Shown: positions 11,423 to 21,259 of the stretch, piece by piece | How the letters are laid out: every line of letters starts with the position of its first letter | Position numbering within the stretch: the first letter of the stretch is position 1 | NCBI GenBank assembly: GCA_937900945.1 | Contig: CALCGG010000009.1 | Location: 1-32,358, forward strand | DNA: 32,358 nucleotides | Origin: an uncultured Sulfurimonas sp. | Lineage (GTDB): Bacteria > Campylobacterota > Campylobacteria > Campylobacterales > Sulfurimonadaceae | Reading direction: 5' to 3' | Made by a program: the position numbers and the translations under genes | The notes under the pieces: generated by a model | What the model was told of the DNA's origin: nothing | The model's database searches: none | The model's input: the letters and a program-made list of their open reading frames with translations, nothing else

Positions 11423-12664
11423 ATGGCACAGATAAAAAATAGATTAACACCGTTTTTTGAAAATATTACTTTTGACAGAGATGATAATGAACTTATATTA
11501 AACTTCGGTCCTCAGCATCCATCTGCTCATGGTCAGCTTCGTTTGATGCTTCACCTTCAGCAAGAACAGATAGTAAAAGCGCATCCAGATATAGGATATC
11601 TTCACCGTGGTATGGAAAAAATGGCTGAAAACATGATTTACAATGAATTCATGCCAACAACAGACCGTATGGATTATATCGCTTCATCTTCAAACAACTA
11701 TGGTTTTGCTTTAGCTGTTGAGAAACTTATAGGTTTAGAAGTTCCTCGTCGTGCAAAAGTTATCCGTATGATGCTTTTAGAGATAAACCGTTTAATGTCT
11801 CACCTATTCTGGTTAGCTACAACTGCACTTGACATTGGTGCTATGACAGTTTTCCTTTTTGCGTTCCGTGAGAGAGAATATTTGATGGATATTATTGAGG
11901 GATATTGTGGAGCGAGACTTACTCATGCTGCTATCCGTATCGGTGGTGTTCCTTTAGATATTCAGGATGGTTTTATCCTTCAGCTAAAAACTTTCTTAGA
12001 TAAACTGCCTCAAAATATTAAAGATTATGAAGACCTTCTTGATACGAACCGTATTTGGCTCATGAGGATGGAAGAGGTTGGTACTATTTCTAAAGAGATG
12101 GCAATCTCTTGGGGTTGTACCGGTCCTATGCTTCGTGCTTCGGGTGTCGCTTGGGATATTCGTAAAGAAGAGCCTTATGAACTGTATGATGAAGTAGAAT
12201 TTGAAGTTCCTTTTTCAGATAAAGGGGATAATTTTGCCCGTTACCGTATATACATGGAAGAGATGAGACAAACTGCTCGTATTCTTTATCAGACAATTGA
12301 CATGTACAGAGATACTGTAAAAAACAATCAAACAGAGTTAATGGCGCATGCTCCAAAATATATCTCAGCTCCAAAGCTCGATATCATGACTCAAAATTAC
12401 TCTTTGATGCAACACTTTGTTTTAGTAACTCAAGGGATGAGACCTCCTGTTGGAGAAGTTTATGTTGCAACTGAATCACCAAAAGGTGAACTTGGTTTCT
12501 TTATAAATTCTCAGGGTGGACCATATCCGTACAGACTGAAACTTCGTGCTCCGTCATTTTGGCATACAGGTATCTTAACAGACCTTTTACCGGGACATTA
12601 TATTCCGGATGTTGTTTCGATTATTGGTACTACAAATATCGTATTTGGAGAGGTTGACAGATAA
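11423..12664 (+). CDS. nuoD: Complex I subunit D (49-kDa type, quinone site)
   Basis: 413-residue subunit that forms the quinone-binding cavity with NuoB. The family signatures are intact: [14 protein letters not shown] near residue 28, [23 protein letters not shown] and the C-terminal [18 protein letters not shown]. Related to the large subunit of NiFe hydrogenases, but without the metal-binding cysteines. A Shine-Dalgarno-like GGTGGTA precedes the ATG. Its stop overlaps the next start by one base. Confidence 0.97.
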
Positions 12665-12885
12665 TGAAAAGATATGATTTAAGACATTTAAAAAATGAAT
12701 TTGAACCTCGAATGAAAGAGTTGCTGCACTCACATAAAAAAGGTGAAGTGGCAATTTTTTTATTTGAAATCGGTGATTTTACACCTATTCAAAGATCAGC
12801 GGATTTGGTAAAAGAGTGCGGGTATGAGTTGATGAACTCTTTAAAGTTTAACGAAGTCGACTGGACTATCGTAACAAAAAAATAG
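12664..12885 (+). CDS. Small protein in the nuoE position (Campylobacterota type)
   Basis: 73 residues where other bacteria have NuoE, a 24-kDa thioredoxin-fold protein with four cysteines for cluster N1a. This protein has only one cysteine (KECGY), so it cannot hold that cluster. Comparable short genes lie in this position in Helicobacter (HP1264) and Campylobacter (Cj1575c) and are often labelled NuoE by position. The sequence is mostly charged at the N-terminus, with a beta-like segment EVAIFLFEIGDF. It probably helps dock the altered input module. Coupled to nuoD by a one-base overlap. Function beyond position is unknown. Confidence 0.75.
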   Translation: MKRYDLRHLKNEFEPRMKELLHSHKKGEVAIFLFEIGDFTPIQRSADLVKECGYELMNSLKFNEVDWTIVTKK

Positions 12886-12895
12886 GAATTGAATT

Positions 12896-14890
12896 TTGAG
12901 TAAAGTCTATTTTTCTACTTGGAATGGTGAGCTGGTAAATAATGTTGGCAAACCTGAAGAAGAGTGGGAAGAATCAGCTTATAACCTACCGGCACAATAT
13001 GATGATCATCGTGAGTCCAAAGCCTTCATAGGCTGGGATGGTGTATCACTGTTTAATGCAGATGTGGATGTAATCCGTTTAGCTATGGAATATGCTGCAC
13101 AGTATCAAGAGTATTCTGAGGCATGTGGAAGATGTGCGCCCGGTCGTTGGGGTGGACGTATTTTATATGATCAACTGGATAAAATCGCTCGTGGTGAAGG
13201 TAGTATTTCTGATTTGGATCACTTGAGGGAGATTGGTGCCAGTATGCAAGTCACATCTAAATGTGAGATTGGTAAAACAGTGCCAAATCCTATTTTAGAT
13301 TTGATGGAGCATTTTGAGCATGAGTTTATGGCTTGTATAAATGAGCAAAAACCATCGAAGCACTATAATGAAAAAGTGGGATATATTGCAAAAATAACAG
13401 CACCTTGTACAGATGCTTGTCCTGCTCATGTTGATATTCCCGGATATATTGAGGGTGTTAGAGATTTAAGATTTGATGATTCCTTAGAAGCAACTCGTCA
13501 GACTATGCCGTTAGCTCATGTTTGCGGTCGTGTCTGTCCGCATCCATGTGAGGATGCATGTAGAAGAACAAACCTTGATGAACCTATTGCAATCATGGCA
13601 CTTAAACGTCTTGGAGCTGATTGGGAAACTGATCATGGCTTGGACTTTTTCCATCCAATGGAAAAAGCACCAAGTACAGGTAAAAAAGTTGCTGTAATCG
13701 GAGCTGGTCCTGCTGGTCTGACTACAGCATATTATTTAGCTGCTGATGGTGTTGAAGTTGATGTTTATGAAGAACTTCCGGTTTTAGGCGGTGAAGTCGC
13801 AGTCGGTGTTCCGGAATATCGTATGCCGGTTGATAAATATAACCAAGATATTGAATGTGTTAGAGATATGGGTGTTAATTTCATCACTAATAGAAGAGTA
13901 AACGCTGATGATATGAGGGCGTTTGAAAAAGATTATGACGCTACTATGATTTCAACAGGAACTAGAATATCTAAAAAAGTTTATTGTGAAAATGAGCGAA
14001 AAGAGATAAAAGGGTACTGGTCTGCTATAGAGATGCTTGATGAGATTAATCTTTGGGAAAAATACGGGATTGGTCAGCCAGTTGATTTGACTGGTAAAAC
14101 AGTTGTTTGTGTTGGTGGTGGTTTTACTTCTATGGACGTTGTAAGATGTGCCATAAGAGCAAATGCTAAAAAAGTCTACATGATTTATCGTCGTGATGAA
14201 AAAACAATCATCCGCAATACTACCTATGAAGAATACCATGAAGCGGTGGAAGAGGGTGTTGAATTTTTATTTCATTCAGCAGTTTCTGCTATGGTTGATG
14301 AAGAAGATGTACTAAAATCCTTAATGGTTGATAAGTTTGAATTGGTTCCAGATCCAAATGGCGGTCGTGCAGAACTTGTAAAGATTGAGGGTGCGTCTTA
14401 TAGTATTGAGACTGACTTCTTAATTCCAGCAGTATCTCAAGCGGCTGATTTGAAGCATTTGCCGGAAGAATGGGAAATAGAAAAAACTTCTTGGGGAACC
14501 ATTAAAACAAACGGTAAAGACTATATGACATCAAAGAAAGGTATTTTTGCCTCCGGAGATTGTGAATACGGTCCGATGACAATTGTAAATGCAGTCGGTC
14601 AAGCTAAGCGCGGGGCATCTGTTATGAGCAGATATTTACAAACAGGTGAAATAACTCTCAGTGATGATGAAATCATGGAAGACCATCTTCGTAAGTTAAA
14701 AGTCTATGATAAAAAAGAGAAAGTAACAGGTTGGCTTCCAGGTTTACCTCGCCAACATAGTGAAGTTCTTGACGTAGACATACGAAAGTTTAACAATAAA
14801 GAAGTTAACTTAGGTTTCACTCAAGAAGAAGCTTTAAGTGAAGCTGACCGCTGTATGCGTTGTTATTACATCGCTATGGTTCAAGCATAG
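12896..14890 (+). CDS. NuoF-slot flavoprotein: NuoF iron-sulfur relic fused to GltD/NfnB-like oxidoreductase
   Basis: 664 residues; starts at TTG, eight bases after AGGA. Residues ~60-140 resemble the C-terminal iron-sulfur domain of NuoF: EACGRCAPGRWGG and SKCEIGKTVP. C77, C80 and C123 match three of the four N3 ligands, and Gly83 replaces the third. The FMN-binding and SLBB domains of NuoF are absent. Residues ~165-250 are a GltD-type double-cluster domain (C171, C175, C200, C204, C208, C212). An FAD-binding GAGPAG follows at 269-274 and an NAD(P)H-binding GGG at 407-409 with a downstream YRRDE that in GltD-like enzymes often goes with NADPH. The end has C653 and C656. It probably feeds NAD(P)H electrons into NuoG. 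Nucleotide specificity is inferred. Confidence 0.85.
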   Translation: MSKVYFSTWNGELVNNVGKPEEEWEESAYNLPAQYDDHRESKAFIGWDGVSLFNADVDVIRLAMEYAAQYQEYSEACGRCAPGRWGGRILYDQLDKIARGEGSISDLDHLREIGASMQVTSKCEIGKTVPNPILDLMEHFEHEFMACINEQKPSKHYNEKVGYIAKITAPCTDACPAHVDIPGYIEGVRDLRFDDSLEATRQTMPLAHVCGRVCPHPCEDACRRTNLDEPIAIMALKRLGADWETDHGLDFFHPMEKAPSTGKKVAVIGAGPAGLTTAYYLAADGVEVDVYEELPVLGGEVAVGVPEYRMPVDKYNQDIECVRDMGVNFITNRRVNADDMRAFEKDYDATMISTGTRISKKVYCENERKEIKGYWSAIEMLDEINLWEKYGIGQPVDLTGKTVVCVGGGFTSMDVVRCAIRANAKKVYMIYRRDEKTIIRNTTYEEYHEAVEEGVEFLFHSAVSAMVDEEDVLKSLMVDKFELVPDPNGGRAELVKIEGASYSIETDFLIPAVSQAADLKHLPEEWEIEKTSWGTIKTNGKDYMTSKKGIFASGDCEYGPMTIVNAVGQAKRGASVMSRYLQTGEITLSDDEIMEDHLRKLKVYDKKEKVTGWLPGLPRQHSEVLDVDIRKFNNKEVNLGFTQEEALSEADRCMRCYYIAMVQA

Positions 14891-14903: not shown

Positions 14904-17159
14904 ATGAATAATTTGATTAATTTTAAAATTGACGGTATCTCAGTAGAAGCTAAAAAAGGCGAGACTATTTTAACTGTAGCCCGCAGACATGATATCTACA
15001 TACCTACTATGTGTTATATCTCAAAAACTACACCTTGTGCATCATGTCGCATGTGTGTTGTTGAGGCTAAGGGAGTCGAGGGTTTTGTACTTTCTTGTAA
15101 CACTCCACCAACTCAAGGTATTGAGATTACAACCAACACGGCAGAGCTTGAAAAAGAACGAACAAATATCATGAAACTTTATGATGTCAACCATCCTTTG
15201 GAATGTGGTGTTTGTGACAAATCAGGCGAATGTGACTTACAAAATAAAACTTTAGAGTTCGGTGTATCAAGCCAAAATTTTACAGCTCGTGATCAATCTC
15301 GTAAAATAGAGGATTGGGGACTCATTAGTTATGACCCCTCTTTATGTATTTTATGTGAAAAATGTGTTCATGTATGTAATGAAGTGATTGGTGATGATGC
15401 CATAGATGTTAAATTTGGCGGATACAGTTCAACTATCATCCCTAAAAATGCTGACACTCTTGATTGTACTTTTTGTGGGGAATGTATAGCTGTTTGCCCT
15501 GTTGGCGCATTAATCAGTTCTGACTTTAAATATAGCGCAAATGCGTGGGAACTTACAAGTATACCGGCTACATGTGCTCATTGTTCTGCAGGCTGTCCAC
15601 TGGAATATGAGACTAAATACTCCGGTATTGACAATGGCTCAGAGTCTATTTTTAGAGTGAAGAACAATTTTGAATTTACATCTTTATGCGGAGCAGGACG
15701 TTTTGGTTTTGACTTTGATAATCATGCTCCAAAAAGTGAGAACGCTTTCACTAATGCTGTAACGGCAGTTAAAGGGGCAAAAGCTATCCGTTTTTCTTCT
15801 ATGATTACAAATGAAGAAGCACATACTTTAGAACTTTTAAAAGAGAAACTTGGAATCAAACTGTTCAACGAAGATGCAAGAAAATTTCAGGATTTTATGA
15901 ACTCTTACAGCAGTATAAGCGGTAAAAAACATCATAGTGGTTCACTTGATGCAATCAAGCAAGCTGACGCAGTAATTGTGATAGGCAGTAGGATTTCTAC
16001 TGATAATCCTGGTGTGAGATATGCAATAACGACTGCAAGAAAACATAATGGTGCCAAAATAGTTTATGCTCATCCAATAGAAGATACTTTACTTAAAAAT
16101 ACTGCAACACAGTTTTTAAAGTATGAAGTTGGAACGGAAGAGGGTGTTTTAGCACTTATAGCAGATGCGATTTTAAAAGAGGCTGATTTATCTGATAGAG
16201 AAAGAGCTTTCTTTAATGATTTAGATTTAGGTTATCTCGCAGCTGAGAGCAACATTGGTGACGAAGAGATAGCACTCATGATGAAATCATTTGCAAGAGC
16301 TAAAAATAAAGTGCTGGTAGTTGGAAATGATTTAATGGCGCATGAACGCTCACGCAATATTGCCAAACTCTCCGCTATGATTGAAAAATACAGCCCATTT
16401 TCATTGGTTGTTATACCAAGTGAAGTCAATACACTTGGAGTCTCTTTGATTAACAGCTTAGATGTTGATGAAGAGATGGCTGACAATGTTGTTGGCTATA
16501 ATGAAAAAGGTAACTTTGTAATCTCATCTTTAGAGTTTGCAAATTTATCGATACCATCTTTAAATCAGCAGGAGGGAACTTTTGTCAGCATTGACAACAG
16601 AGTTCTTCCAACAAATGTTGCTCTTTCATTTGATGGCTATACACTCAATGATATTGCCTTGGCATGCGGTGTTAAGACAAAAAATACAGTTGAGTATACG
16701 AAAATGTTAAGCAGTGCTTCTGGATTTAAAAATAGAGAATTTGATTCTTTAGAAAACTTTTTATCTCCGTATGGTGATGACAACAGAGGCTACTTGCTTG
16801 ATGAAGTCACATGTGCGATGAATGGTGAACTTGAAGAGATTGGAGATTTACCAGAATTTAACGGTACTGTTATCTATCATTCAAATCCGGTATTACAATT
16901 TAATGCATATACAAACAAAACAAAGCAGTTAGAAAAAGATAATACACTTAAGGGTTCAGCTCAATTTGCTGCAGCTGCGAGAATTTCTGATGGTGATAAA
17001 ATCGAAATATCATTTGGTTCAAGAGTTATTCAAAGAGAATTTAAATTGGACAACAGCCTCAAAGGTACCGTTGCCTTGAATCCTACATTTGATAATAGAG
17101 TGGATGCAAGTAGATACAGATTTGAAAAATCCAAAATAGTGAGGGTAATACATGAATAA
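14904..17159 (+). CDS. nuoG: Complex I subunit G, first copy
   Basis: 751-residue iron-sulfur subunit. The ATG at 14904 follows GGGGAGGGA; a longer frame to 14838 would overlap the previous gene without reason. Cluster motifs run in order: [2Fe-2S] ligands C37, C48, C51, C65; His-ligated N5 type H97, C101, C104, C110; two ferredoxin-like blocks C148/C151/C154/C158 and C188/C191/C194/C198; and an N7-like set C224, C227, C231, C262. The rest is a molybdopterin-oxidoreductase-like domain without cofactor, as in other NuoG. It carries electrons from the input module to NuoI and NuoB. It overlaps the second copy by eight bases. Both copies belong to one transcription unit. Confidence 0.94.
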   Translation: MNNLINFKIDGISVEAKKGETILTVARRHDIYIPTMCYISKTTPCASCRMCVVEAKGVEGFVLSCNTPPTQGIEITTNTAELEKERTNIMKLYDVNHPLECGVCDKSGECDLQNKTLEFGVSSQNFTARDQSRKIEDWGLISYDPSLCILCEKCVHVCNEVIGDDAIDVKFGGYSSTIIPKNADTLDCTFCGECIAVCPVGALISSDFKYSANAWELTSIPATCAHCSAGCPLEYETKYSGIDNGSESIFRVKNNFEFTSLCGAGRFGFDFDNHAPKSENAFTNAVTAVKGAKAIRFSSMITNEEAHTLELLKEKLGIKLFNEDARKFQDFMNSYSSISGKKHHSGSLDAIKQADAVIVIGSRISTDNPGVRYAITTARKHNGAKIVYAHPIEDTLLKNTATQFLKYEVGTEEGVLALIADAILKEADLSDRERAFFNDLDLGYLAAESNIGDEEIALMMKSFARAKNKVLVVGNDLMAHERSRNIAKLSAMIEKYSPFSLVVIPSEVNTLGVSLINSLDVDEEMADNVVGYNEKGNFVISSLEFANLSIPSLNQQEGTFVSIDNRVLPTNVALSFDGYTLNDIALACGVKTKNTVEYTKMLSSASGFKNREFDSLENFLSPYGDDNRGYLLDEVTCAMNGELEEIGDLPEFNGTVIYHSNPVLQFNAYTNKTKQLEKDNTLKGSAQFAAAARISDGDKIEISFGSRVIQREFKLDNSLKGTVALNPTFDNRVDASRYRFEKSKIVRVIHE

Positions 17160-19641
17160 AATTACTGTAAATATTGATGGAAAAGATGTTCAAACGCAAG
17201 AGGGTGAGTATATATTAAATGCTGCCCGTGCGAATGATATTTTTATTCCAGCTATCTGTTATTTAACGAGATGTAGTCCTACGCTAGCGTGTCGTCTATG
17301 TCTTGTAGAAGCTGACGGTAAACAAGTGTATGCTTGTAATGCAAAAGCTAAAGATGGCATGAACATAACGACTACAACTGCAACGATTGAGTCTGAGAGA
17401 CGGGCAATCATGGAAGTCTATGATGTAAATCATCCTCTTCAATGTGGTGTTTGTGATCAATCCGGTGAGTGTGAATTACAAAACTATACACTCGAGATAG
17501 GTGTAGATTCTCAAAATTATTCTATTAAAGATGTTGAGAGAAGCTCTCATGATTGGGGACATATTCAATATAACTCAGGTTTATGTATCGTATGTGAAAG
17601 ATGTGTAACTGCTTGTAAAGATATGATTGGTGACAACTCTCTTAAAACTATAGCTCGTGGTGCAGATGCACTTGACGCTGGTTTTAAAGAAGCAATGCCA
17701 AAAGATGCCTATGCTATGTGGAATAAATTAAATAAGTCCCTAATAGGTCTTACTAATGGTACAGATGTACTCGATTGTACCTCTTGTGGAGAGTGTGCTT
17801 CTGTTTGTCCTGTTGGAGCTTTAGTCGATACTCATTTCGTATACAAATCAAATGCTTGGGAACTAAAGCAAATTCCGGCTACATGTGGGCATTGTTCTGC
17901 AGGATGTCAAATATCTTATGATGTGAAACACAACAGCATAGAAAATCCGGAAGATAAAATCTACCGTGTTATGAATGAATGGAACTATGTTTCACTTTGT
18001 GGTGCCGGCAGATACGGATTTGATTATCAAAATGCTGGTGTCAGTAAAAATGAAGAGTCCTTTAACAAAGCAATTGAAGCCTTTAAAAAAGCGGATACTA
18101 TTAAATTTACTTCAACTATCACAAATGAAGAAGCACTAATTTTAGAGAAGTTAAAAGAGAAGTTTGGATATAAGTTAGTAAATAATGAAGCTTTTGCTTT
18201 CCAGAAATTCTTACACGATTATTCAGATATAAGCGCTACCCGTCTTTATGGAAGTGATTTAAAAGAGATGGCTGCGAGCAATTTTATAGTTTCAATTGGT
18301 TCAGCTTTAAAAAGTGATAATCCAAATGCAAGATACTCATTTAACAATTCTTTAACTGTAAATAAAGGTGCAGGTCTTTATTTCCACCCACTAGGTGATC
18401 CAATCATTGACGGTATGGGTAAAAGTATTATGAGTATTGCTCATAAGCCGCTTCAAGAAGAGGCAGTTTTATATCTAATCTTGGATTTATTTGCCGATAA
18501 AGAGAAATTACCATCGGAAATAAGTGATTATTTGGCATCTTTTCATACTAAGAAAATTATAAAAGTTGAAGAGACTATCAAAGAAAAAGTAGTTGAAATT
18601 GTTAAAGAGAAGAAAGTTAACGCGGAGACTGGTGAAGAAGAGGAAGTGGAAGTAGAGAAATCTAAAATGGTTCCTAAAATTATAACTAAAGAGGTAGAAG
18701 TTGATGATAACAGACTTCTATCTTTGGTTGGCGCACCTGAAAACTTCACAGAAAGCTTAGAAAAGTTTTTAGGTAAAAAAGACTCTTTCTGTTTAGTTGT
18801 CGGACCAGATTTATATACTCATCCAAACTCTAAAAACCTTGCAAGATTGGTTGCTTTAGTTGAAAAATACAGCGAGTTTAAACTTGTTATGATTCCAACT
18901 TTAACAAATTCTCTTGGAGTTTCTTTAATTAATGAGCTCTCTAAAGAAGATGGCAAGTACACTATAGGCTATAATACTAAAGGTGACTTCACATTATCAG
19001 CTTTAGGTGATGGAGATTTAGATATGCCGGCAATAAACCAGCAAGAAGGTACTCTTACCTCGATTAATAAAAGAGTAAACCCTACAAATGCTGCTATTGG
19101 GTATGGCGGATATGAGCTCAATGATATTGCAGTTGCGTTGGGATTACAAGCTGATAATACGATTGAATATACTAAAGAGTTGCCAACATCTAAAGGTTTT
19201 AAGGCTGAAGCGTTTGATTCTCTGCCTGATTACTACACAAATGCAGGTGAAGAGATGCGTGGATATCAACTGAAAAATATGGGCAGAAGAGTCTCCAGTG
19301 ATGAGAGTGTTGAGAAAATTGATGAAGCACTAACAATTTCTGGAAACTTAATCTATCTTGCTAATCCAGTGAGACAGTTTAGTGAGTTTACAAATAAAGC
19401 TACAAACCTTGATGAGGTTAGCGGTATCTATATGAGTGAAGAGTTTTTAAGCAACTCTGAATTCAATGTAGGTGATAAAGTAAAAGTTAAGAGTGAGAAT
19501 GGTGAGTTAATAGCTAATATAGTAAGTGATAATAAAATCACTGGAGATATAGCAGTAATTCCAACTTTTGATTCTAAATTAAATTCAGAGGCCCTGTTTA
19601 ACGGTTATCGTTTTGCTTCAGCTTCGATAGAAAAGGTGTAA
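17152..19641 (+). CDS. nuoG: Complex I subunit G, second copy with charged insert
   Basis: 829 residues, paralogous to the preceding gene along its whole length. The same cluster ligands are intact: C36, C47, C50, C62; H94, C98, C101, C107; C145, C148, C151, C155; C209, C212, C215, C219; and the N7-like C245, C248, C252, C283. Two inserts distinguish it: residues ~171-203 between the two ferredoxin-like blocks, and ~469-519, a Lys/Glu/Val-rich repetitive stretch (EETIKEKVVEIVKEKK, then EEEEVEVEKSK) probably forming an exposed coiled or beta-hairpin arm. The frame is uninterrupted, so neither insert is a frameshift. A purine-rich GAGGGTAA precedes the ATG inside the first copy. It may be a second electron entry point or extend the same wire. 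Confidence 0.92.
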   Translation: MNKITVNIDGKDVQTQEGEYILNAARANDIFIPAICYLTRCSPTLACRLCLVEADGKQVYACNAKAKDGMNITTTTATIESERRAIMEVYDVNHPLQCGVCDQSGECELQNYTLEIGVDSQNYSIKDVERSSHDWGHIQYNSGLCIVCERCVTACKDMIGDNSLKTIARGADALDAGFKEAMPKDAYAMWNKLNKSLIGLTNGTDVLDCTSCGECASVCPVGALVDTHFVYKSNAWELKQIPATCGHCSAGCQISYDVKHNSIENPEDKIYRVMNEWNYVSLCGAGRYGFDYQNAGVSKNEESFNKAIEAFKKADTIKFTSTITNEEALILEKLKEKFGYKLVNNEAFAFQKFLHDYSDISATRLYGSDLKEMAASNFIVSIGSALKSDNPNARYSFNNSLTVNKGAGLYFHPLGDPIIDGMGKSIMSIAHKPLQEEAVLYLILDLFADKEKLPSEISDYLASFHTKKIIKVEETIKEKVVEIVKEKKVNAETGEEEEVEVEKSKMVPKIITKEVEVDDNRLLSLVGAPENFTESLEKFLGKKDSFCLVVGPDLYTHPNSKNLARLVALVEKYSEFKLVMIPTLTNSLGVSLINELSKEDGKYTIGYNTKGDFTLSALGDGDLDMPAINQQEGTLTSINKRVNPTNAAIGYGGYELNDIAVALGLQADNTIEYTKELPTSKGFKAEAFDSLPDYYTNAGEEMRGYQLKNMGRRVSSDESVEKIDEALTISGNLIYLANPVRQFSEFTNKATNLDEVSGIYMSEEFLSNSEFNVGDKVKVKSENGELIANIVSDNKITGDIAVIPTFDSKLNSEALFNGYRFASASIEKV

Positions 19642-19644
19642 TAT

Positions 19645-20634
19645 ATGGATACAGCATATTTAATTGAGACAATCATAAAAGTCGTTGTAGTTTTACTCAT
19701 ATTTTCTGCATTAGCGGGGATTGGGACTTATTTTGAAAGAAAAGTTCTTGCATTTATGCAACGTCGTTTAGGACCAATGTATGTTGGACCTTTTGGGCTG
19801 TTGCAAGTTGCGGCTGATGGTGTAAAACTATTCACAAAAGAGGATATTGTTCCTACCAATGTAGTAGCAAAAGTATTTAAAATTGCACCGGTAATCACTG
19901 CAGCAACTGCATTTATGGCTGCTGCTGCGATACCTTTTTTACCTCAGTTTACACTCTTTGGATATACAGTGCATCCAATAGTCGCTGATATCAACATCGG
20001 TATTCTTTATATTCTTGGTATTATGGGTATTGGTCTGTATGGTCCTCTTCTTGGCGGTATGGCTTCGGCAAATAAGTTTTCACTTCTTTCAGCTGCAAGA
20101 ACTGCAGCTGTTTTCATATCTTATGAAGTTGTGACTGGTTTGTCACTTTTAGCTCCTATTATGATGGTTGGTTCATTATCTCTGATTGATTTTAATGAGT
20201 ATCAAGCTGGTGGAATAGGTGATTGGATTATTTGGTCTCAGCCTGTTGCTTTTGTTCTGTTTTGGATCGCTGCATTTGCTGAAACTGGTCGTACACCATT
20301 TCACTTAATTGCGAATGATCATGAGATCATTGATGGTTTTGGTACAGAGTACTCTGGTATGAGATGGGGTCTTTTCTTCATCGGTGAGTATGCCAACATG
20401 TTCTTTATCTCATTTGTTATCCCTTTAATTTTCTTAGGTGGATACGGAGATGGAAGTTTTCTCGGTGCTTTAGGACTGCTTGGAAAAATGGCATTTTTCT
20501 TTTTCTTTTTCTTATGGACAAGAGCTGCTTGGCCAGATGTAAGACCAGATCAGCTCATGTGGTTGTGTTGGAAAGTATTAATGCCATTAGCTGTGATAAA
20601 TATTGTTATCACTGGCCTAGTGATGATGTTTTAA
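19645..20634 (+). CDS. nuoH: Complex I subunit H
   Basis: 329-residue integral membrane protein with about eight helices that builds the quinone channel and the first proton path next to NuoA, J and K. Signatures ERKVLAFMQRRLGPMYVGP (about 31-49) and AETGRTPFHL plus EYSGMRWGLFFIGEYANM in the cytoplasmic loop are intact, including the conserved Glu residues. Shine-Dalgarno AAGGTG lies before the ATG. Three bases separate it from nuoG copy two. Confidence 0.97.
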   Translation: MDTAYLIETIIKVVVVLLIFSALAGIGTYFERKVLAFMQRRLGPMYVGPFGLLQVAADGVKLFTKEDIVPTNVVAKVFKIAPVITAATAFMAAAAIPFLPQFTLFGYTVHPIVADINIGILYILGIMGIGLYGPLLGGMASANKFSLLSAARTAAVFISYEVVTGLSLLAPIMMVGSLSLIDFNEYQAGGIGDWIIWSQPVAFVLFWIAAFAETGRTPFHLIANDHEIIDGFGTEYSGMRWGLFFIGEYANMFFISFVIPLIFLGGYGDGSFLGALGLLGKMAFFFFFFLWTRAAWPDVRPDQLMWLCWKVLMPLAVINIVITGLVMMF

Positions 20635-20644
20635 GGGGATATGA

Positions 20645-21259
20645 ATGAAAAATGAGCAATTTAATAACAGAGATGTTAGTGATAGCTACTTCTTAGTAGA
20701 TATACCAGACTATCCGACGGATGGCTGGGGTAAATTTACAAGAGTAGTTAAAAGAACTTTCAGAGGTGAACTTTTTGTTGGCCTTTGGGTTGTTTTAAGA
20801 GAGATGATTAAGTTTGACATTCATACTGTTCAATATCCTCTGGAAAAGATGCCGATTGGTCCACGATACCGTGCTGTTCATGAGATGAAAAGATTATGGG
20901 AATCTGGAACTGAGAGATGTATCGGCTGTGGGTTATGCGAAAAGATTTGTATCTCTAACTGTATTCAAATGGATACTAAAATAGATGAAAATTCTCGTAA
21001 AGAAGTAAGCGAATATAGTATTAATCTAGGTCGTTGTATCTTTTGTGGTTACTGTGCTGAAGTTTGTCCGGAACTTGCTATTACTCATGGCGGTCGTTAT
21101 GAGAATGGAAGTGAACAAAGAGAACACTTTGTCATGTATGAAGATATGTTAACACCAATTGACGCTCTTAAAGCTGGAAAGCAGTTAGAGTTTGAAGGTT
21201 TTGGTGCTATTACACCACATGAAGATGAGCGTGTTAAAAAAACACCTCTATCGTATTAA
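20645..21259 (+). CDS. nuoI: Complex I subunit I (N6a/N6b clusters)
   Basis: 204-residue peripheral protein carrying two [4Fe-4S] clusters that pass electrons from NuoG to NuoB. First block CIGCGLCEKIC (C92, C95, C98, C102), second CIFCGYCAEVCPE (C131, C134, C137, C141). The fourth Cys of block one is followed by Ile rather than the common Pro, and an additional C106 lies four residues on. An amphipathic N-terminal segment (about 35-55) fits the membrane-associated helices of the family. Preceded by AGGGGATATGA. Length is slightly above the usual because of a C-terminal tail. Confidence 0.96.
   Translation: MKNEQFNNRDVSDSYFLVDIPDYPTDGWGKFTRVVKRTFRGELFVGLWVVLREMIKFDIHTVQYPLEKMPIGPRYRAVHEMKRLWESGTERCIGCGLCEKICISNCIQMDTKIDENSRKEVSEYSINLGRCIFCGYCAEVCPELAITHGGRYENGSEQREHFVMYEDMLTPIDALKAGKQLEFEGFGAITPHEDERVKKTPLSY

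Follow-up and report, generated by a model that had tools for sequence, protein, structure and literature searches.

A complex I operon of a Sulfurimonas-like bacterium encodes two ancient NuoG paralogues that probably act in one peripheral arm

Canonical complex I contains one NuoG (Nqo3, NDUFS1) per complex. The subunit, as known from E. coli, Thermus and Aquifex, carries the ligands of clusters N1b, N5, N4 and N7 and a C-terminal domain with a Mo-enzyme-like fold, and it is partnered by NuoE and NuoF. Clusters N1b, N4 and N5 lie on the electron path of the complex, N7 and an extra ferredoxin-type cluster lie off it, and NuoI takes electrons from the NuoG wire.

A close described relative is the enzyme of Helicobacter and Campylobacter (epsilon-Nuo), reported to use flavodoxin in place of NAD(P)H (PMC6682613, PMC4178425). 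The replacements of NuoE and NuoF in these bacteria (HP1264/HP1265 and Cj1575c/Cj1574c) are called only "two other genes" in a review, from which the name nuoX used here was taken (PMC6682613). HP1264, whose NMR structure is available (2LXR), was described as FMN-binding (PMC6269979) and HP1265 is annotated as NuoF (PMC3561388); for Cj1574c, a role in passing electrons from flavodoxin on to complex I was reported (PMC4178425). A second relevant system is the Sporomusa-type transhydrogenase StnABC (8OH5, 9BOV), a soluble enzyme with bifurcating StnAB (HydBC-like) subunits, lacking a quinone site or membrane arm. In its StnC chain, a GltD-like FAD/NADPH module and a NuoG-like module are electrically joined as one electron path, and the Mo-enzyme-like part is off-path and needed for assembly (PMC10482914).

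The window analysed here, a stretch of 32,358 nucleotides, comes from a Sulfurimonas-like genome (Campylobacterota), with the nearest named loci in Sulfurimonas and Sulfuricurvum. It carries an operon in the order nuoA-B-C-D-X-F-G1-G2-H-I-J-K-L followed by two more NuoL-like antiporter ORFs, in which a single set of the subunits other than NuoG is encoded. The features relevant to this study are as follows.

11423..12664, + strand: nuoD (PF00346, 4.5e-104)
12664..12885, + strand: nuoX, 73 aa, HP1264/Cj1575c family (PF16514, 8.1e-38; PDB 2LXR, 3.5e-20)
12896..14890, + strand: gene of the nuoF-slot protein F, 664 aa (PF10589, 8.6e-20; PF14691; PF07992)
14904..17159, + strand: nuoG1 (G1), 751 aa, putative distal NuoG; Fe-S domain aa 1-270, Mo-enzyme-like domain aa 217-751 (NuoG profile, ligand alignment, model)
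15939..16418, + strand: G1 block 1, approximately aa 346-505, present in all relics; signature D-x-GY-xx-x-E-x-N-xx-EEE at aa 441-455
16821..17156, + strand: G1 block 2, approximately aa 640-751, retained in relics
17152..19641, + strand: nuoG2 (G2), 829 aa, canonical, putative proximal NuoG; orthologue of the single NuoG in Helicobacter/Campylobacter-type lineages (NuoG profile, ligand alignment, tree)
19645..20634, + strand: nuoH (operon context)
20645..21259, + strand: nuoI (NF004542, 1.1e-100)

The operon order is that of epsilon-Nuo and the same NuoX (PF16514, a family named "putative NADH-ubiquinone oxidoreductase chain E") is encoded at 12664-12885, between nuoD and the nuoF slot. This gene was absent from the list of the sequence-only reading of this DNA. 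Epsilon-Nuo has a single NuoG, orthologous to G2, and lacks both F and the Fe-S domain of G1; its NuoY corresponds to a C-terminal G1 remnant. In the window, no short nuoY devoid of the Fe-S domain was found and full-length G1 occupies its place. The form of epsilon-Nuo in the window is the ancestral one, prior to reduction. In comparison with canonical complex I, two NuoG instead of one are encoded, and NuoX and a GltD-like F stand in place of NuoE and NuoF; neither NuoE nor the FMN/NADH domain of NuoF, which mark a canonical NADH:quinone oxidoreductase, was found in the operon. Set against these known systems, the locus represents a complex I variant.

The F protein combines a NuoF-type N3 domain (aa 74-146) with a GltD/NfnB-like FAD-NAD(P)H domain (aa 168-583). 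The latter matches NfnB/GltD, although members of the NfnAB/GltD family lack the added N3 domain, and F, unlike them, is encoded in a nuo operon. Only the C-terminal N3 domain of NuoF was recognized in F, with no Pfam match to the 51 kDa FMN domain. The best PDB matches were 9bov and 8oh5. Three of the four cluster cysteines of the N3 domain are present: C77, C80 and C123 were invariant in 95 F homologues, and in the CGRCAPG motif the third cluster cysteine was replaced by Gly83 in all 95. With such a three-cysteine site, the usual hand-over from N3 to N1b may not operate. The AlphaFold model of F was poor (pLDDT 63) and was set aside. By analogy, we propose StnC as a solved precedent for the wiring of a GltD-like to a NuoG-like module and for the role suggested below for the C-terminal domain of G1. 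In StnC both modules form one chain, whereas here they are encoded by the adjacent genes F and G1 and may be in electrical contact.

The tandem arrangement of two nuoG genes overlapping by eight bases, described in the sequence-only reading, was borne out (G1 stop at 17159, G2 start at 17152), and this junction was the most frequent one among related operons (38 of 96). The start of G1 was assigned to the ATG at 14904, preceded by GGAGGG, while the mechanical ORF begins at 14838. Both proteins matched the NuoG model NF006305 above its cut-off of 591 bits (G1 913, G2 1175) and were 37% identical to each other over the full length. A genome search revealed no third nuoG elsewhere in the source genome.

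The same reading had also held that both proteins retain every cluster ligand, and the alignment with E. coli and Aquifex NuoG agreed. The ligands were C37/48/51/65 in G1 and C36/47/50/62 in G2 for N1b, H97 C101/104/110 and H94 C98/101/107 for N5, C148/151/154/198 and C145/148/151/219 for N4, C158/188/191/194 and C155/209/212/215 for the extra ferredoxin-type cluster, and C224/227/231/262 and C245/248/252/283 for N7. When 95 G1 and 117 G2 were aligned with NuoG of E. coli and the N-terminal part of that of Aquifex, the N1b, N5 and N4 ligands were invariant across all G1 and G2. The extra cluster, which Aquifex shares and E. coli lacks, was retained in about 89 of the 95 G1 and in almost every G2. 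The N7 ligands were kept in 94 of 95 G1 and in 87 of 91 G2 from full-type operons, but only in 13 of 26 G2 from reduced operons, i.e., those lacking F and full-length G1. On-path clusters are thus strictly conserved in both paralogues and losses are tolerated among the off-path ones. A conserved Cys41 adjoining the [2Fe-2S] ligands was specific to G2.

In the AlphaFold model of G1, the Fe-S part was of low confidence (pLDDT < 50 for aa 90-217) and the interpretation was limited to the C-terminal domain. Residues 217-751 aligned with formate dehydrogenase H (Z 26.1, 3.5 A, 509 aligned residues) and with Thermus Nqo3 (Z 23.8), and the model shows a complete predicted fold of the formate dehydrogenase type. 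The identity to G1 over the whole length indicates a Mo-bisPGD-enzyme-like C-terminal domain also for G2. A charged, repetitive insertion (KEKVVEIVKEKK...EEEEVEVEK) lies in the middle of this G2 domain, at approximately aa 470-535. G1, G2 and F were all under strong purifying selection (omega 0.04-0.10), with about equal constraint on the two NuoG (0.06-0.10).

NuoG of the G1/G2 type was detected in 202 of 249 Campylobacterota genomes. Two NuoG were present in all 19 sampled members of the family-level group of the window and in members of many other family-level groups. In the NuoG tree, all G2, including every tested single-copy NuoG, grouped together with a support of 100, and all G1 fell outside this clade. 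Long outgroup branches (E. coli and Aquifex) left the root and the monophyly of G1 unsure but did not affect the G2 clade. Because all single-copy NuoG fell inside the G2 clade, it was G1, not G2, that single-copy lineages lost. A phylogeny had been suggested earlier as a means of dating the duplication, and the tree places it before the split of the sampled families. By this evidence, the duplication predates the Campylobacterales radiation and the pair, present across the order, is neither a chance nor a local feature. No description of a second nuoG in Campylobacterota was found in the open-access literature searched.

The region from nuoD to nuoG2 could be read in 122 operons. F and full-length G1 (mostly 668-790 aa) were both present in 96 and both missing in 26, with no exception, and in the 96 operons the two genes always lay between nuoX and nuoG2. 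NuoX was found in full and reduced operons alike. A search of the 249 genomes detected F in 60, but the matches in four of them (G041, G159, G212 and G226) covered only aa 157-661, had no N3 domain and were not counted, being GltD paralogues. The remaining 56 included all 53 genomes with at least three NuoG segments. Two other candidates were rejected. An apparent G1-G2 fusion in G167 (open frame of 1544 aa) resolved into two distinct genes, with a frameshift in G2, and sizeable additional ORFs in L137, located between F and G1, are overlapping non-coding frames. The frameshift-split nuoG2 (L161, G167:C1, approximately 11681-14051) occurs in a one-contig genome and may be real or a sequencing error.

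When the full and the reduced state were mapped onto a phylogeny of seven concatenated subunits (NuoB, C, D, H, I, K and L), at least 11 changes between them were required, or 13 under irreversible loss. Several of them fell within Sulfurimonas, among genomes whose NuoD is more than 92% identical to that of the window, and full-length G1 was not found elsewhere in six reduced Sulfurimonas-type genomes. In one Sulfurimonas-type operon (L094), nuoX directly precedes nuoG2, with neither F nor any part of G1 left. The C-terminal domain of G1 is therefore not indispensable.

In the other 25 of the 26 reduced operons, a protein of 215-511 aa was encoded in the slot between nuoX and nuoG2. All 25 matched the C-terminal part of G1 (39-582 bits) far above that of G2 and kept at least the two collinear G1 blocks, approximately aa 346-505 and 640-751. 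What the reduced operons lack fits the removal of one uninterrupted segment spanning F and the 5' portion of G1, in most cases accompanied by a smaller internal deletion. Two Sulfurimonas-type operons encode intermediate relics (L047:11476-13011 and L095:11478-12986), in which G1 is kept from the N7 motif onwards and N1b, N5 and N4 are lost. Of the G1 signature D441-x-G-Y ... E448-x-N ... E455, the residues D441, E448 and E455 were kept in 25 of 25 relics, whereas D441 and E448 differ in G2; the relic alignment was correct for block 1 only, and the assessment of block 2 relied on HMM domain matches. Omega values of 0.24-0.47 indicated purifying selection on the relics, and in one locus NuoX and the relic were fused into one protein of 351 aa (L178:4211-5266, + strand). 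The relic had no Pfam family and at best a sub-threshold NuoG match in NCBIfam.

The NuoX of one reduced operon (L148) matched H. pylori HP1264 at about 70 of 71 residues, and its slot protein of 339 aa thus stands in place of HP1265. Judged from sequence, the relic is the HP1265 "NuoF" slot protein (nuoY), an Fe-S-poor C-terminal piece of G1, and Cj1574c would by position be its Campylobacter counterpart. The open literature searched held no earlier statement that a NuoF replacement of the Helicobacter/Campylobacter type is left over from a second NuoG.

The sequence-only reading had offered two explanations of the pair, both NuoG in one arm or two alternative complexes. The strict joint pattern of F and G1 in 122 of 122 operons and the C-terminal part of G1 kept beside G2 in 25 of 26 reduced ones favour the former and disfavour the latter. 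In alternative complexes, a shared membrane arm with NuoBCDI would take either G1, served by F and a pyridine nucleotide, or G2, served by a different donor, for instance ferredoxin or flavodoxin. The full ligand set in both paralogues, the single set of other subunits and the sufficiency of G2 alone in reduced lineages are consistent with this. However, the two genes overlap and are presumably co-translated, a G1 C-terminal domain unable to replace G2 was kept beside it in at least 10 lineages, and the relic occurs fused to NuoX, which together make alternative complexes unlikely.

Alternatively, F and G1 could make up a separate soluble enzyme, an Stn-like transhydrogenase or an NAD(P)H:ferredoxin oxidoreductase, whose genes merely lie in the nuo operon. 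Such an enzyme would agree with the joint loss of the two genes, the composition of StnC from GltD-like and NuoG-like domains (PMC10482914) and the best PDB matches of F (9bov/8oh5). It is quite improbable, however, in view of the NuoF-type N3 domain of F, the constant location of both genes between nuoX and nuoG2 in 96 operons, the retention of the G1 remnant in the nuo operon and the link of its C. jejuni slot-mate Cj1574c to flavodoxin-to-complex-I transfer (PMC4178425). Moreover, no StnAB (HydBC-like) module or StnA/StnB-like subunit was found among the operon ORFs examined. It is hardly credible that G1 is a superfluous copy in decay that serves no function: the relics show its degradation in many lineages, but intact G1 is as constrained as G2, which contradicts decay, and its ligands are invariant in 95 G1 from about 12 family-level groups.

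We therefore consider it likely that a single complex I is encoded, with NuoG on two storeys of its peripheral arm, in which G1 would be a distal adaptor between F and G2. The survival of the G1 C-terminal domain beside G2 in at least 10 lineages, together with the NuoX fusion, makes the presence of G1 in the same particle the simplest reading. The joint loss of F and the G1 Fe-S domain would be due to their working as a single functional unit for pyridine-nucleotide input. A longer electron wire from F to NuoI via both NuoG is plausible and agrees with the invariance of the on-path ligands in G1 and G2.

In the two-storey arrangement, G2 would be the canonical NuoG seated on NuoI and NuoD, and G1, the ancient paralogue, would couple F, replacing NuoF/NuoE, to the remaining arm. 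Electrons may pass from NADH or NADPH to the FAD of F, through the Fe-S clusters of F and G1 to G2 (N1b, N4, N5), and on to NuoI and quinone, or in the reverse direction. The Mo-enzyme-like domain of G1 would serve mainly as a scaffold that also holds NuoX, useful even without a wire. In lineages fed by flavodoxin or ferredoxin, F and the Fe-S domain of G1 would have been deleted jointly, and the trimmed C-terminal domain (nuoY) would stay with NuoX on the arm. F and G1 could also constitute a subcomplex that is only loosely attached.

The fuller proposal is held with moderate confidence, somewhat better than even. It comprises a two-storey complex I, with a GltD/NfnB-type flavoprotein feeding or fed by a serial two-NuoG wire that approximately doubles the peripheral wire, and a "NuoF replacement" of H. 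pylori and C. jejuni that is the scaffold remnant of a second NuoG, not an unrelated flavodoxin-docking protein. The finding offers an origin for at least one of the NuoE/NuoF replacements of Helicobacter and Campylobacter, NuoY being the leftover of a second NuoG. At least 11 natural deletions separate the putative redox part of G1, lost with F, from the putative scaffold part, which was kept. Full-type Sulfurimonas and relatives, set against species with the reduced form, thereby become a structural target, in which a new complex I arrangement is predicted, with two NuoG per arm and a likely pyridine-nucleotide entry via a GltD-like flavoprotein.
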